From: Weeksella massiliensis
GTDB taxonomy: Bacteria > Bacteroidota > Bacteroidia > Flavobacteriales > Weeksellaceae
Direction: 5' to 3'
Length of the DNA: 64,000 nt
NCBI GenBank assembly: GCA_000751595.1
Contig: CCMH01000005.1
Span: forward strand, 1-64,000
The notes under the pieces were generated by a model, which was not told the origin of the DNA, did no database searches, and saw only the letters and a program-made list of their open reading frames with translations. The translations under genes were made by a program, and so were the position numbers. Below are positions 14,376-48,249 of this stretch, one piece after another; the stretch's first letter is position 1; every line of letters begins with the position of its first letter.

Positions 14376-14455
14376 TGGGCGTTCCCTTCGGGCGGGCTTT
14401 CTGTTGCAATCTTTGCTCAATCGCAAAGGATTTCCACGTCAATCCCTAACGCAAA
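14376..14455. repeat. Palindromic intergenic element of dispersed-repeat type
   Basis: The metH-metF gap contains a multi-hairpin unit. It has a CCC-TTC-GGG hairpin in GGGCGTTCCCTTCGGGCGGG (14377-14396), a CTTTGC/GCAAAG hairpin (about 14411-14428), and outer arms GCGTT (14379-14383) and AACGC (14448-14452) that can close the whole. It resembles GC-rich GGGCGTTCCC elements I recall as scattered in Bacteroidota intergenic regions. Only one copy is visible in this window, so its dispersed nature is recalled, not shown. Confidence 0.55.
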
Positions 14456-18151: not shown

Positions 18152-18268
18152 CCTTACGAAGAATGCAAGCCTTATTTTTCTCAGAAATTGAGTAGGATGT
18201 AGCACCCAACAAGACTTGGGTTGCTAAGATATCTTCGGGCCTATTCCCTCCATCTATTCTTCATAAGG
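18152..18268 (-). promoter_or_regulatory. SAM-I (S-box) riboswitch upstream of metH
   Basis: Read on the minus strand, P1 (CCTTATGAAGAAT 18268-18256, ATTCTTCGTAAGG 18164-18152, one G-U) closes a core with the S-box signatures GATGGAGGGA, GGCCC, GAAGA, CTTAGCAACC and GGTGCTACATCC. A -7 box (TACATTTG, 18280-18273 minus) would start transcription at about the first P1 base. No U-tract terminator follows. Instead TGCAAG/CTTGCA arms (18164-18169, 18146-18151) can form a hairpin with the P1 3' arm in its loop, 16 nt before the ATG, which suggests translational control. Bases 18269-18477 hold only promoter-like sequence. Confidence 0.93.
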
Positions 18269-18477
18269 TAATCAAATGTAAGTAGTTCTAGGCGATTAAA
18301 AAACAGCTGAATAGGAAGTGCATTTTTTTTAAATTTTAACAAATAATTGTTTTTTAAAGATTCTTAGGTTGTGTTAAAATTGTTTTGTGTATTTACAATA
18401 TAATAGAATATTATTCTGTTTACTGATAGAAAAACATCATGCAATAGAATAATGTTAAACTTTTTAAGTTTTTGGAT

Positions 18478-18530: not shown

Positions 18531-18650
18531 TCTTTTTATCGTGAAAAGTGGAGGGACATGGCCCAACGAAGCTTTAGCAACCTGGAAATATTTTTATATG
18601 ACTAAGGTGCTAATTCCATCTTTTGCTTACAGGCAAAGGAAAGATAAGTG
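18531..18650 (+). promoter_or_regulatory. SAM-I (S-box) riboswitch upstream of hom
   Basis: On the plus strand the S-box core reads AAAAGTGGAGGGACATGGCCC, CGAAG, CTTTAGCAACC, then AAGGTGCTAATTCC, a P4 hairpin (TTTGC/GCAAA about 18622-18637), and GATAAG (18643-18648) pairing with TTTATC (18535-18540) as P1. It is followed by an intrinsic terminator at 18678-18727, so SAM should cause premature termination before hom. A 67-codon open frame across it is not a gene. Confidence 0.93.
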
Positions 18651-42858: not shown

Positions 42859-44667
42859 ATGTTAGGAAATATTAAAAATGTAACCGTTGCCGGCAGTGGC
42901 GTTTTGGGCTATCAAATTACTTTTCAGACTGCTTTTCATGGATTTCATGTTACGGTGTATGATATTAATGAGGACGTTTTGAATAAAGCAAAAGCCAAAT
43001 TCGAGGAGCTGGCTCAAAGTTATAGAACGGATATGAAGGCGACGGATGACCAAATCAATGCAACAAAGGAAAATTTAACGTATTCATCCGATTTGGAAAA
43101 AGCTGTAGCAGAGGCCGATTTACTCATCGAGGCGGTTCCAGAAAACATTCAAATCAAAACAGAATTTTATCAGCAATTGGCAAAAGTTGCGCCCGAGAAA
43201 ACCATTTTCGTAAGTAACTCGTCTACATTATTACCAAGTCGTTTCGCTAAAGTTACCGGAAGACCCGAAAAGTTTCTGAATCTCCATTTTGCAAATCAAA
43301 TTTGGCTACACAACACAGCCGAAATTATGGCGCATCCTACAACTCAAGATGAGGTAAAAAAAGCGATAGAACAATTTGCCAAAAACATTGGTATGGTTCC
43401 GATTATCGTGAAAAAAGAAGTGCCGGGTTATATTCTCAATTCGATGCTCAATCCGTTTCTGAATGCGGCTTTGCAGTTGTGGATAGGGAAATTTACTACG
43501 GCAGATTTTATCGATAAAACTTGGATGAAAGGAACCGGTGCGCCTTATGGTCCGATGGCTTTGTACGATGTTGTGGGGCTTACCACGCCATATAATATTT
43601 ACAAACTACAGGTCGAAAAAGGAAAAAAAGACGATCAAAAAGTGGTGGATATTCTCGAGTCAACTTTCATCAAACCTCATAAATTAGGAGTTTCTACGGG
43701 AGAAGGTTTTTATACGTATCCTAATGCTGCATGGCAACAAAAAGATTTTTTAGCTGTGCCGAAAGCCGATTTATCGAAAATAAACATCCAAAAAGTAGTG
43801 GTTGCCGGAAGTGGCGTTTTAGGATTGCAAATTGCGGCGCAAACTGCTTTTTATGGGTTTGATACCGTGATTTACGATCTGAAAGAAGAGGCGTTAAAGG
43901 AAGCACAAACTCGTTTCGAAACCTTATTGTCAGAATATCAAGAACTTTTGCAAGCAACCGAAAATCAGATCGAACAAACACGTGCACATTTAGAATTTAG
44001 TCATGACTTAGAAAAAGCTCTTCAAGAGGCCGATTTATTGATAGAATCGGTTCCAGAAAGTTTAGAAATTAAAGAAAGTTTTTGGCAAGAAGCGGCAAAA
44101 TTTGCACCGGAGAAAACCATTTTTGCGAGTAATTCTTCGACCTTGTTGCCGAGTCAAATCAAAGATTTTACGGGTCGTGCCGATCGCTATATTCATTTGC
44201 ATTTTGCCAATCATATCATGATCCGAAATATGGCAGAAATTATGGGTTCAAGCGATACAGATCCAGAAGTATTTACTGAAATAGTAGCGTTTGCAAAAGC
44301 TATCAATATGTTGCCTATCGAACTGAAAAAAGAAAAAGCAGGCTATGTTCTCAATTCGCTTTTGGTGCCTCTTTTGGTTGCAGGCCTTTCGTTGTGGGCA
44401 AATGACGTGGCGGATCCGGAAACGATTGATAAAACGTGGATGATTGCGACCGGTGCGACATTTGGTCCGATGGCAATTCTGGATATGAACGGAATGAATA
44501 CCAATTATAATGTACTGAAAAATAGTCCAGCCGAGTTTATGCAAAATCTTGCGCATAAATTGAAAACCGAATTTATAGACAAAGGAAAATTGGGGCAACA
44601 ATCGGGTGAAGGATTTTATCAATATCCGAATCCGAAGTGGCAACAAAAAGATTTTCTGAAAGCCTAA
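42859..44667 (+). CDS. Tandem duplicated 3-hydroxyacyl-CoA dehydrogenase
   Basis: A 602-residue protein made of two homologous units (about 1-305 and 312-602). Each has an NAD site (VTVAGSGVLGYQITFQTAF; VVVAGSGVLGLQIAAQTAF), an NSSTLLPS loop, a catalytic-region HFAN block and a C-terminal helical domain with GEGFY-YPN-WQQKDFL. Both halves keep the motifs, so two active sites in one chain are plausible. Single-unit members are NAD-dependent 3-hydroxyacyl-CoA or 3-hydroxybutyryl-CoA dehydrogenases. Fusion after duplication is seen directly from the internal repeat. It stands alone, without beta-oxidation partners nearby. Confidence 0.88.
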   Translation: MLGNIKNVTVAGSGVLGYQITFQTAFHGFHVTVYDINEDVLNKAKAKFEELAQSYRTDMKATDDQINATKENLTYSSDLEKAVAEADLLIEAVPENIQIKTEFYQQLAKVAPEKTIFVSNSSTLLPSRFAKVTGRPEKFLNLHFANQIWLHNTAEIMAHPTTQDEVKKAIEQFAKNIGMVPIIVKKEVPGYILNSMLNPFLNAALQLWIGKFTTADFIDKTWMKGTGAPYGPMALYDVVGLTTPYNIYKLQVEKGKKDDQKVVDILESTFIKPHKLGVSTGEGFYTYPNAAWQQKDFLAVPKADLSKINIQKVVVAGSGVLGLQIAAQTAFYGFDTVIYDLKEEALKEAQTRFETLLSEYQELLQATENQIEQTRAHLEFSHDLEKALQEADLLIESVPESLEIKESFWQEAAKFAPEKTIFASNSSTLLPSQIKDFTGRADRYIHLHFANHIMIRNMAEIMGSSDTDPEVFTEIVAFAKAINMLPIELKKEKAGYVLNSLLVPLLVAGLSLWANDVADPETIDKTWMIATGATFGPMAILDMNGMNTNYNVLKNSPAEFMQNLAHKLKTEFIDKGKLGQQSGEGFYQYPNPKWQQKDFLKA

Positions 44668-46215: not shown

Positions 46216-47102
46216 ATGAAAAAATTATTAAAATCCTTAGGGGTTCTGCTTTTGGTGGCCACTGTGATGAGTTGTCAATCCAAAAATAAGGACAAAAAAA
46301 CTACGGCATCACAAGAAAAACCTACAACAGGAAAGCAGTTGTATAAAAATGCTACCCTAATTTCCGGAAACGGCGATGATGCTAAAGTAACTGACTTTTT
46401 GGTAGAAAACGGAAAAATTGTAAAAGTAGGTGAAAACTTATCCGATCAAGAGGCAATATTTTGAGCGATTTGCAACAGCTGGTAAAAGATGGTGTTGATA
46501 TTGTGGTACACAGTATTCGAGATCAAATTATCGATGATGCCACACTTAAAGGAATGAAAGCAAAAGGCGTAACTTATATCCCAACCCTTTCGTTGGATGA
46601 GTTTGCTTACATCTATGCTAAAAAACCAGAATGGATGAACAATGAGTTCTTCAAAAAATCTTTAGAACCAGGAGTTTATGATAAAATCACCTCACAAGCC
46701 TACCAAGATGAGTTGAAAAATAATCCGCTATTTGAAACCAATGTCAAAGCTTTTCAAACCTCTTTGGCGAATGTAAAAAGAGTGTACGATGCCGGAATTC
46801 CAGTGGCTTTTGGTACAGATTCTGGTGCGATGTTTTTAAGAGCGCAAGGTTTTAGTGAACATCTCGAAATGCAACTTTTGGTAGAAGCGGGTTTAACGCC
46901 TAATCAAGTGATTACTATCGCGACAAAAAATGCTGCAAAAGTAATTGGTATCGATAAAGATTACGGTACTTTAGAAGCAGGAAAAGTAGCAGATTTCATT
47001 GTTTTGGATGCGAATCCGTTAAATGATATCAAAAATTCTGAGAAAATAAATGCAGTTTATAAAGTAGGAAAAGAAGTTTCTAAAGGTCCGTTAGCAAAAT
47101 AA
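46216..47102 (+). pseudogene. Amidohydrolase with internal deletion and frameshift
   Basis: The first frame (46216-46464) encodes a lipoprotein signal (VATVMSCQSK) and the amidohydrolase N-terminal strand region (KNATLISGNGDDAKVTDFLV, ENGKIVKVGENL). It then shifts frame about 46440-46452. From there to 47102 the other frame encodes NILSDLQQLVKDGVDIVVHS... to VADFIVLDANPL, the C-terminal third. The roughly 200 central residues with the metal-binding HxH motif are missing. The product cannot be an active hydrolase. It lies 47 nt after the aldo/keto reductase gene. Confidence 0.85.
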
Positions 47103-47132: not shown

Positions 47133-47160
47133 AAAAGCTCTACTTTAGTAGAGCTTTTTT
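47133..47160 (+). terminator. Terminator of the amidohydrolase remnant
   Basis: AAAAGCTCTACT (47133-47144) and AGTAGAGCTTTT (47147-47158), nearly perfect hairpin with T tail. Confidence 0.85.
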
Positions 47161-47183
47161 TATGATAAGCTTACAAAGATAAC

Positions 47184-47517
47184 TATATTTGGCACAGCAT
47201 TCGCTAGGTAGAATTGTTTATCAAACAGAGAAAATAAATCTAAAAATATAACCGCCACCTGTTTTATCTAAATAGAACCAGCATACAAAACAGGGTATTG
47301 CGGAGCTTGGTTCTATGCGGGTTCGATTCCCAATTTGCGTGGTCGCGCGGCATTTTGCCATTTGTACCATTATGTGTAAAAAGGGAAGAGTGGACGTTCG
47401 TTCATCGAGAAAAAGTTTGCAAATTGTAGGATACCGTTGGATTTCTCAACTCAATACAATTTCCCTTGATTTCGATTTCTTCCCTTATTTTTTTAATTTT
47501 ATTAATCAGAAAAAGAG
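47184..47517 (+). other. Non-coding region with pseudoknot potential and a tRNA T-arm-like motif
   Basis: No credible gene lies between 47103 and 47517. It holds an exact TAnnTTTG box (TATATTTG, 47184-47191), then interleaved inverted repeats: CCTGTTTT (47258-47265) with AAAACAGG (47287-47294), CCGC (47252-47255) with GCGG (47300-47303), and ATAGAACCA (47272-47280) with TGGTTCTAT (47308-47316), an H-type pseudoknot order. GGGTTCGATTCCC (47319-47331) follows, identical to a common tRNA T-arm. No full tRNA can be folded, because acceptor and T-stem partners do not match. It could be a structured leader of the SPFH gene, a decayed tRNA or att remnant, or chance. Confidence 0.5.
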
Positions 47518-48249
47518 ATGTCACTTTTTAGAAAAAAATACGAAGTAAAGCCGAACACAACAGGTTTTTTATACCGAAATCATCAATACGAAAAAACTTT
47601 GCAAGCCGGTATTTATAAGTTTTGGGATATGAATAATGAAACGCACGTTTACATTTTGCCCAATACGCCGAAATTATTAACGATAACTAATCAAGAGGTG
47701 CTTACAAAAGATAATGTGGCGCTTCGGTTTTCTTTCAATGTGTGGTATGCAGTTGCTGATGGGAAAAAATTTTTAGATAGTTTTGCGCTCGATCGTTCTT
47801 TAGAAGAAGTTTGGTACGAAGCAGAAAATAAAATTCATACCATTGTACAACTCGATTTACGCAATAGAATTGCTGCGTTGGATAGCGAAAGTGTGAATGA
47901 ACATCGGATGGATTTTTCTGATTTCAAAACCAAAGAAATGGAAGAAGAAATCGCACAATTTGGTATCCGAATAGAACAAGCAAATTTGCGAGATCTAACT
48001 TTTCCGAGAAATATTCAACAATTATTTGCCAAACATCTCGAAGCAAAAATTCGTGCAAAATCCGATTTAGAAAATGCGCGTACAACGGTGGCAACCGCTC
48101 GCGCACTGAAAAATGCAGCAGATTTGATGAATGATCATGAGAATATAAAATTCTTTCAACTTCTCGAAACTTACACCAAAATTGCCGAAAATGGAAAACA
48201 TACTTTTGTGCTCGGTGATCTGAATGATTGGACGAAAAAAACTGATTAA
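47518..48249 (+). CDS. SPFH/Band 7 (slipin-like) protein
   Basis: A 243-residue SPFH-domain protein. The N-terminal segment (KPNTTGFLYRNHQYEKTLQAGIYKFWD) and the central TKDNVALRFSFNVWYAV...IHTIVQLDLRNRIA match slipins. A helical tail (EIAQFGIRIEQANLRDLTFP, then an Ala-rich coiled region) follows. The usual N-terminal membrane hairpin is absent, so it may attach peripherally or be soluble. Role unknown; SPFH proteins form membrane-associated cages or scaffolds. Confidence 0.85.
   Translation: MSLFRKKYEVKPNTTGFLYRNHQYEKTLQAGIYKFWDMNNETHVYILPNTPKLLTITNQEVLTKDNVALRFSFNVWYAVADGKKFLDSFALDRSLEEVWYEAENKIHTIVQLDLRNRIAALDSESVNEHRMDFSDFKTKEMEEEIAQFGIRIEQANLRDLTFPRNIQQLFAKHLEAKIRAKSDLENARTTVATARALKNAADLMNDHENIKFFQLLETYTKIAENGKHTFVLGDLNDWTKKTD

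Follow-up and report, generated by a model that had tools for sequence, protein, structure and literature searches.

A two-domain RNA with a tRNA-like module directly upstream of a soluble slipin-type SPFH gene in Weeksella massiliensis and other bacteria

In a 64,000-nucleotide (nt) stretch of the Weeksella massiliensis genome (contig CCMH01000005.1, positions 1 to 64,000 of the forward strand; hereafter the window), a structured RNA lies immediately upstream of a gene encoding an SPFH/Band_7 protein of the slipin type. The gene (47518..48249, plus strand, as are all features of the RNA given below) encodes 243 amino acids (aa), with a match to PF01145 (E 2e-22) and no transmembrane segment (maximum 19-aa hydropathy 0.58), and in a profile search the nearest sequences in the PDB were stomatins and prohibitins. 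The whole RNA, delimited by its homologues and by pair counts, is about 237 nt long (47250..47486), is composed of a 5' pseudoknot, a tRNA-like module and a 3' domain, and ends 31 nt ahead of the SPFH start codon. A preliminary description of the region 47184-47334 had reported a TAnnTTTG box, interleaved arms in A-B-A'-B' order and a tRNA T-arm. All of these elements were confirmed at their positions, and the interval holds the 5' half of the RNA, but it ends about 150 nt too early, as a second covarying domain reaches 47486.

The 5' domain begins with P1a, a 4-bp outer arm formed by CCGC (47252-47255) and GCGG (47300-47303). The first pseudoknot stem, P1b, pairs CCTGTTTT (47258-47265) with AAAACAGG (47287-47294) over 8 bp, and the second, P2, pairs TAGAACCAGC (47273-47282) with GCTTGGTTCTA (47305-47315); the lengths of 8 and 4 bp first given for two of the arms hold, but P2 has 10 bp with a bulged U47308 and not 9 bp. 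These stems are followed by the T-arm GGGTTCGATTCCC (47319..47331; GGG-TTCGATT-CCC), whose canonical T-loop is recognized from its sequence, from its match to positions 349-361 of the transfer-messenger RNA (tmRNA) model and from covariation, and by an acceptor-like hairpin, P4 (TGCG-TGGT-CGCG, 47336..47347). An alignment of 50 sequences, 46 of them distinct, was used to score the 30 pairs of P1a, P1b, P2, the T-arm and P4. Compensatory changes were found at 27 of the 30 pairs, including 8/8 in P1b, 10/10 in P2 and 4/4 in P4, and standard pairs made up 92.6%. In P1a, 97.8% of the cells were paired, and C-G is replaced by U-A, a compensatory change, in Parabacteroides, Solitalea and Bergeyella. 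The covariation score was 0.544, compared with at most 0.111 in slid controls, and 0/500 shuffles reached it. As the P1 stem lies outside the search model, its support is not a product of the fit.

The 3' domain, which was absent from the preliminary description, consists of a closing stem, a hairpin and two further stems. The closing stem P6 (47381-47389 with 47478-47486) showed compensatory changes at 10/10 pairs, the hairpin P7 (TGGAC-GTTC-GTTCA, 47391..47404) at 4/4, and P8 (47405-47415 with 47465-47475) at 11/11. Beyond P8, a conserved asymmetric internal loop, UUUGC/CC, leads to P9, in which AAATTGTA (47421-47428) pairs with TACAATTT (47455-47462), again with compensatory changes at every pair (8/8). 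P9 encloses a core formed by the conserved GGAUACCG (47429-47436), the hairpin P10 (47436-47439 with 47447-47450) and a conserved UCAA (47451-47454), which is near-invariant among 34 aligned sequences; in P10, 7/8 pairs showed compensatory changes and the eighth never varies. The near-invariant motifs of the domain are UUUGCAA, GGAUACCG, CUYAA and UUCC. Altogether, 40 of its 41 pairs were supported by compensatory changes, and its covariation score was 0.737, against at most 0.204 in slid controls. Folded alone, the window sequence was no better than its shuffles (z = -0.24), so the case for the structure is a comparative one throughout.

Comparison with Rfam 15 yielded nothing above the gathering score over the RNA of the window, and in 18 relative loci the sole match was a separate tRNA gene. 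At a permissive threshold, the window gave a 13-nt match to the T-arm of tmRNA (10.9 bits) and otherwise chance matches. A tmRNA fragment was rejected, because the match covers only those 13 nt and the genome carries its own intact tmRNA elsewhere. Like tmRNA (RF00023), the RNA combines a T-arm and pseudoknots within one molecule; unlike tmRNA, it has neither a tag frame nor an end that could be aminoacylated. The assembly of W. massiliensis (2.56 Mb, 54 contigs) holds one copy of the RNA, 54 tRNAs and the separate tmRNA.

The RNA was also found in two congeners at 86% and 76% identity, one of which is Vaginella massiliensis, and in four more members of the same family, while two weak matches (L048, L049; L numbers denote loci) proved to be unrelated. 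The covariance model R1, which covers the 5' module and was built from seven sequences, located the RNA in further families of the phylum, and every true match lay directly 5' of an SPFH gene on the same strand; one match (L051) was discarded as false, as it falls inside a coding gene and has no SPFH gene beside it. Searches across the order and the phylum gave no true model match away from SPFH and no stand-alone copy. The distribution is patchy, with the RNA present in 7/197 genomes of the family and in 6/395 genomes across the phylum after removal of the false match and under strict filters.

Starting from the protein, an SPFH alignment scan of 85,000 species genomes gave 49 loci, 42 of them at 40% identity or more. 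Two of these were left out, one with only 95 nt of upstream sequence (L071) and one truncated (L097), and in all of the 40 testable close homologues the RNA was found about 290 nt 5' of the start codon. The model accounts for 37 of the 40; two coincide with L045 and L004, and one, from Doudnabacteria (L098), was recognized by eye from its T-loop and its GGATACCG core. The weakest model matches, in Capnocytophaga, had E values of 0.004-0.006, yet a clear 3' domain. The 40 loci span the Bacteroidota, Ignavibacteria/Chlorobi, Acidobacteriota and Cyanobacteria, together with one Treponema bin and one Doudnabacteria bin; both of the latter are single contigs of metagenome-assembled genomes, so these two phyla are provisional. 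A control within the Cyanobacteriales separated close from distant homologues: the RNA lay 5' of 5/5 close SPFH homologues (at least 49% identity) and of 0/25 slipins at 23-28% identity, and three more cyanobacterial members carry it as well. A further cyanobacterial match (L152, 27-125), 1.4 kb 5' of a distant slipin, was rejected as a degenerate tRNA-like sequence with a T-arm and no 3' domain. In two loci, the SPFH frame contains in-frame stops with an intact RNA 5' of it (L056, 1780-2530, two stops; L061, 2922-3647, one stop), which may reflect recent decay, an assembly error or a function of the RNA that is independent of SPFH.

Sequence comparison thus establishes an RNA family that is new, about 240-260 nt long and strictly tied to one subfamily of soluble SPFH proteins, together with its secondary structure, pseudoknot included. 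Of the readings in the preliminary description, that of a novel structured leader or small RNA receives strong support, since the element is conserved in relatives, shows compensatory changes in both domains, falls outside Rfam and always stands directly 5' of an SPFH gene.

The same comparison establishes that many members hold a tRNA-like module of permuted order. In relatives, the T-arm is followed on its 3' side by the closed acceptor-like hairpin, often by a D-arm, and often by a hairpin whose 7-nt loop resembles an anticodon loop. The order T-arm, hairpin, D-arm was recognized in L059 through a match to the model of YrlA, a bacterial Y RNA (RF02553), and by inspection in L061, L004, L065 and L047; in L059, L061, L004 and L065 the D-arm has the tRNA stem GCUC/GAGC. 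In the window, the same position is occupied by a hairpin, P5 (GGCA-TTT-TGCC, 47349..47359), and the anticodon-arm position that follows (47360..47379) is eroded, while about 17 relatives have an intact 7-nt anticodon-like loop there; the window copy therefore retains the T-arm, P4 and a short P5. Of 37 segments, 14 have a YUNNNRN loop, where 0.7 would be expected and 300 shuffles gave at most 3; the middle triplets of these loops vary (GAA, CAA, GTT, GAT, TAG, GTA, TCG, ATT, CAC). The most complete example is that of Lentimicrobium (L059), a nearly complete tRNA in permuted order, which after un-permutation was called as tRNA-Asn by ARAGORN at the default score (0/1000 shuffles). Un-permuted L061 and L047 were called as tRNA-Phe and tRNA-Arg, respectively, only at a relaxed score at which 1.4-1.9% of shuffles were also called. 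In its native order the window gave no complete cloverleaf, in line with the earlier remark that no tRNA can be completed there, and the earlier label of tRNA-like is borne out by the permuted module of the relatives. The locus L061, from the Treponema bin, also has a normal tRNA gene (2455-2526) about 90 nt 5' of the RNA.

The module is not uniform across the family. The T-loop is kept in most lineages and replaced in a few, being missing in lineages such as the Ignavibacteriaceae, Chlorobiales, Porphyromonas and Capnocytophaga. At nine loci (L066, L074, L080, L082, L085 and four of Capnocytophaga: L091, L092, L094, L096) the T-loop is replaced and the pseudoknot and the 3' domain are kept, indicating that the T-arm is a replaceable module. 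A GG in the P4 loop was present in 30/33 sequences with a T-loop and in 6/12 without (p 0.006, phylogeny not corrected for), and when the hairpins were re-parsed automatically the p value was 0.15; this gives only a hint that the T-loop may dock onto the GG loop inside the RNA.

The arm order shared with YrlA (T-arm, closed acceptor-like hairpin, D-arm, all mimicking tRNA) makes this Y RNA the closest point of comparison, and YrlA belongs to RNA-repair operons (PMC7790460). The L059 RNA matches the YrlA model with E 1.4e-5 and 33 bits, compared with a gathering score of 69, and its sequence does not pair at the outer, Ro-binding stem of the model. The window RNA had no YrlA match even at E 10, and none was found in L061, L047, L004, L069 and L070. 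Ro60 (TROVE) is absent from the W. massiliensis genome and from 28 of 30 RNA-bearing genomes, and an obligate Ro60 partner was rejected on this ground. Because of the YrlA score, the unpaired Ro-binding stem and the missing Ro60, the RNA was not filed as a Y RNA. It further differs from YrlA in adding an anticodon arm, a pseudoknot and a 3' domain, and in having an SPFH protein as its fixed neighbour.

Upstream of the RNA, a terminator-like hairpin with a T-run (AAGCTCTACTTTAGTAGAGCTTTTTTTAT, 47136..47163, recognized from the sequence) closes the preceding gene, so that the RNA and the SPFH gene look like a separate transcription unit. A candidate Bacteroidota -7 box of the TAnnTTTG type, TATATTTG, lies at 47184..47191, also by sequence; the sister species (L003) likewise has a TAnnTTTG box 71 nt 5' of CCGC, and several other loci have a TAnnTTTG or TATATT box at just 14-23 nt 5' of the RNA. 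With these promoter-like boxes ahead of the RNA and no gene between it and SPFH, we infer that the two would be transcribed together.

The gene neighbourhoods point in part to RNA repair. In loci of Prevotella, Dysgonomonas and Solitalea (L067, L070, L076), a divergent WYL regulator is followed by the RNA, SPFH and, directly, RtcB; the three RtcB proteins are just 26-37% identical to one another despite the same layout. On a Citrobacter plasmid (L116, 3510-7463), rtcR and RlaP, a polymerase-beta family protein of the RNA repair pathway, flank a distant slipin. This RtcR-controlled unit of Enterobacteriaceae resembles our loci in tying a slipin to RNA-repair genes, but its slipin is only about 22% identical and longer (375 aa), and no related RNA was found there. 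In Anabaena, a trcR mutant shows strong induction of the slipin gene alr0740 along with rtcB and a tRNA array, and TrcR binds the alr0740 promoter region (PMC10272220); the same three are differentially regulated in a strain grown with erythromycin (PMC9938897).

From these observations we tentatively favour, with confidence a little short of even, the reading that the RNA of about 240 nt would be the 5' part of a slipin transcription unit and work together with the SPFH protein, most likely as the RNA component of a soluble ring or cage made of slipin. Transcribed at the head of the unit, it may be bound by SPFH. When tRNAs are damaged or translation is under stress, enzymes that handle tRNA may be recruited or occupied by its tRNA-mimic end, in the way proposed for YrlA at the Ro60 ring. 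Transcription as one unit, SPFH binding and the role in RNA repair or stress are all put forward here as inferences. We counted in favour of this reading the covariation in both domains, the 40/40 tie and the cyanobacterial control, the tRNA module of relatives (the YrlA match, the ARAGORN calls and the YUNNNRN loops), and the RtcB/WYL loci, the Citrobacter rtcR-slipin-RlaP arrangement and the alr0740 literature.

Several points weigh against it. RtcB and Ro60 are both missing from the W. massiliensis genome, and the higher frequency of RtcB in genomes with the RNA (17/29 versus 11/28) falls short of significance. In the Acidobacteriota, the RNA-SPFH pair stands beside microcompartment genes and not repair genes, the neighbours being genes for bacterial microcompartment (BMC) shell proteins, for proteins that are EutN-like by sequence and for an aldolase. 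The Anabaena slipin alr0740 may lie outside the RNA-linked SPFH subfamily. Erosion of the tRNA module in the window, and its loss from several lineages, mean that the module cannot be the sole essential part. The RNA never changes its place, directly 5' of the gene and on its strand, and a leader that acts purely in cis would account for this as well. As an observation on the acidobacterial loci themselves, the order RNA-SPFH followed by shell genes, near an aldolase gene, was seen at eight of them (L081, L084, L086, L087, L088, L090, L093, L095).

Such a leader would only regulate the SPFH mRNA, its tRNA-like module binding SPFH or a tRNA-binding factor that is freed on tRNA damage and so providing feedback, as in the E. 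coli thrS leader, which mimics tRNA-Thr. We regard it as a serious candidate, though its chance of being right stays clearly below even. Besides the constant position with no gene between, it gains from the promoter-like boxes 14-23 nt ahead of the RNA 5' end in several loci, from the lack of stand-alone copies in the order and phylum searches, and from YrlA in Rfam, which shows that tRNA mimicry in this arm order exists. Inspection revealed no conserved expression platform, no conserved terminator and no pairing at the ribosome site, however, and the distance between the closing stem and the start codon varies. Two intricate domains and about 240 nt are large for an autoregulatory leader, and the RNA is intact in L056 and L061 despite the stops in the SPFH frame, both of which may be recent or assembly errors. 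Leaders of the thrS type share a tRNA-like structure in the 5' leader, but the RNA described here is far larger, has two domains and a permuted order, and precedes SPFH and not a synthetase gene. Retrons and IscB with its omega RNA are similar in that a large structured RNA is always directly 5' of its partner gene, but they differ in that no nuclease or polymerase is present here and SPFH is a stomatin-type former of rings or cages. The fixed position speaks for a cis function or for an obligate pair, while the size, the complexity and the lack of an expression platform speak for a function in trans. On this evidence, a ribonucleoprotein subunit acting in trans and a tRNA-mimic leader acting in cis are close to equally likely, and we place the ribonucleoprotein slightly ahead.

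An unlikely explanation is that anticodon nucleases are baited or sensed by the RNA: toxins that cut tRNA, or nucleases triggered by phage, would find in the permuted tRNA an anticodon-like loop of variable sequence, and a cut would titrate the nuclease or signal damage. The anticodon-like loops are indeed kept as 7-nt YUNNNRN with differing middle bases, and three loci are linked to RtcB, which seals such cuts, but the anticodon arm is eroded or missing in about half of the family, the window included; YrlA was not seen to be cleaved by the nuclease tested (PMC7790460), and SPFH had no match among the PADLOC defence models. A type III toxin-antitoxin RNA was rejected, as the partner is SPFH and not a ToxN fold and the pseudoknot is single and non-repeated. 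Cargo of phages or plasmids was likewise rejected, the SPFH subfamily being absent from phage and viral collections and plasmids holding only distant slipins (22-27% identity). The remnant of a tRNA- or tmRNA-targeted integration site with a pseudoknot by chance complementarity, an origin raised in the preliminary description and suggested by the canonical T-arm and its 13-nt tmRNA match, is highly improbable and already refuted, because the T-arm is integral to an RNA that is conserved and covaries in several phyla, the real tmRNA lies elsewhere, none of the 54 tRNAs shares its 3' part and no second copy of that part exists, and the SPFH protein has no phage or viral counterpart in the collections.

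Other features of the window were recorded alongside. The lipoprotein/amidohydrolase gene 5' of the RNA (46216-47102) is split over two frames (82 aa and 213 aa) and is pseudogene-like, with frame loss and a middle part that is probably missing. Two S-adenosylmethionine (S-box) riboswitches lie back to back, about 260 nt apart (18169-18269, minus strand; 18533-18650, plus strand), a Flavo-1 RNA at 14386-14455 (minus strand) is barely over the Rfam threshold, and 42859-44667 encodes a single 602-aa protein with two tandem 3-hydroxyacyl-CoA dehydrogenase units.

Searches of openly accessible papers yielded no account of an RNA associated with SPFH or slipin genes, and to our knowledge no RNA partner has been described. 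In its widest form, our proposal is that of a new ribonucleoprotein class extending from the Bacteroidota to the Cyanobacteria and one bin of Patescibacteria, with a soluble ring or cage of slipin that would be built on or around a two-domain RNA ending in a permuted tRNA mimic, a machine similar to Ro60 and its Y RNA with an SPFH ring replacing the Ro60 ring; we consider this possible but doubtful. With an RNA family that bears a permuted tRNA mimic and goes along with one soluble SPFH subfamily over several phyla, it becomes directly testable whether SPFH rings take part in RNA quality control; if the proposal is true, the principle of the tRNA-mimicking Y RNA would be extended to bacteria without Ro60.
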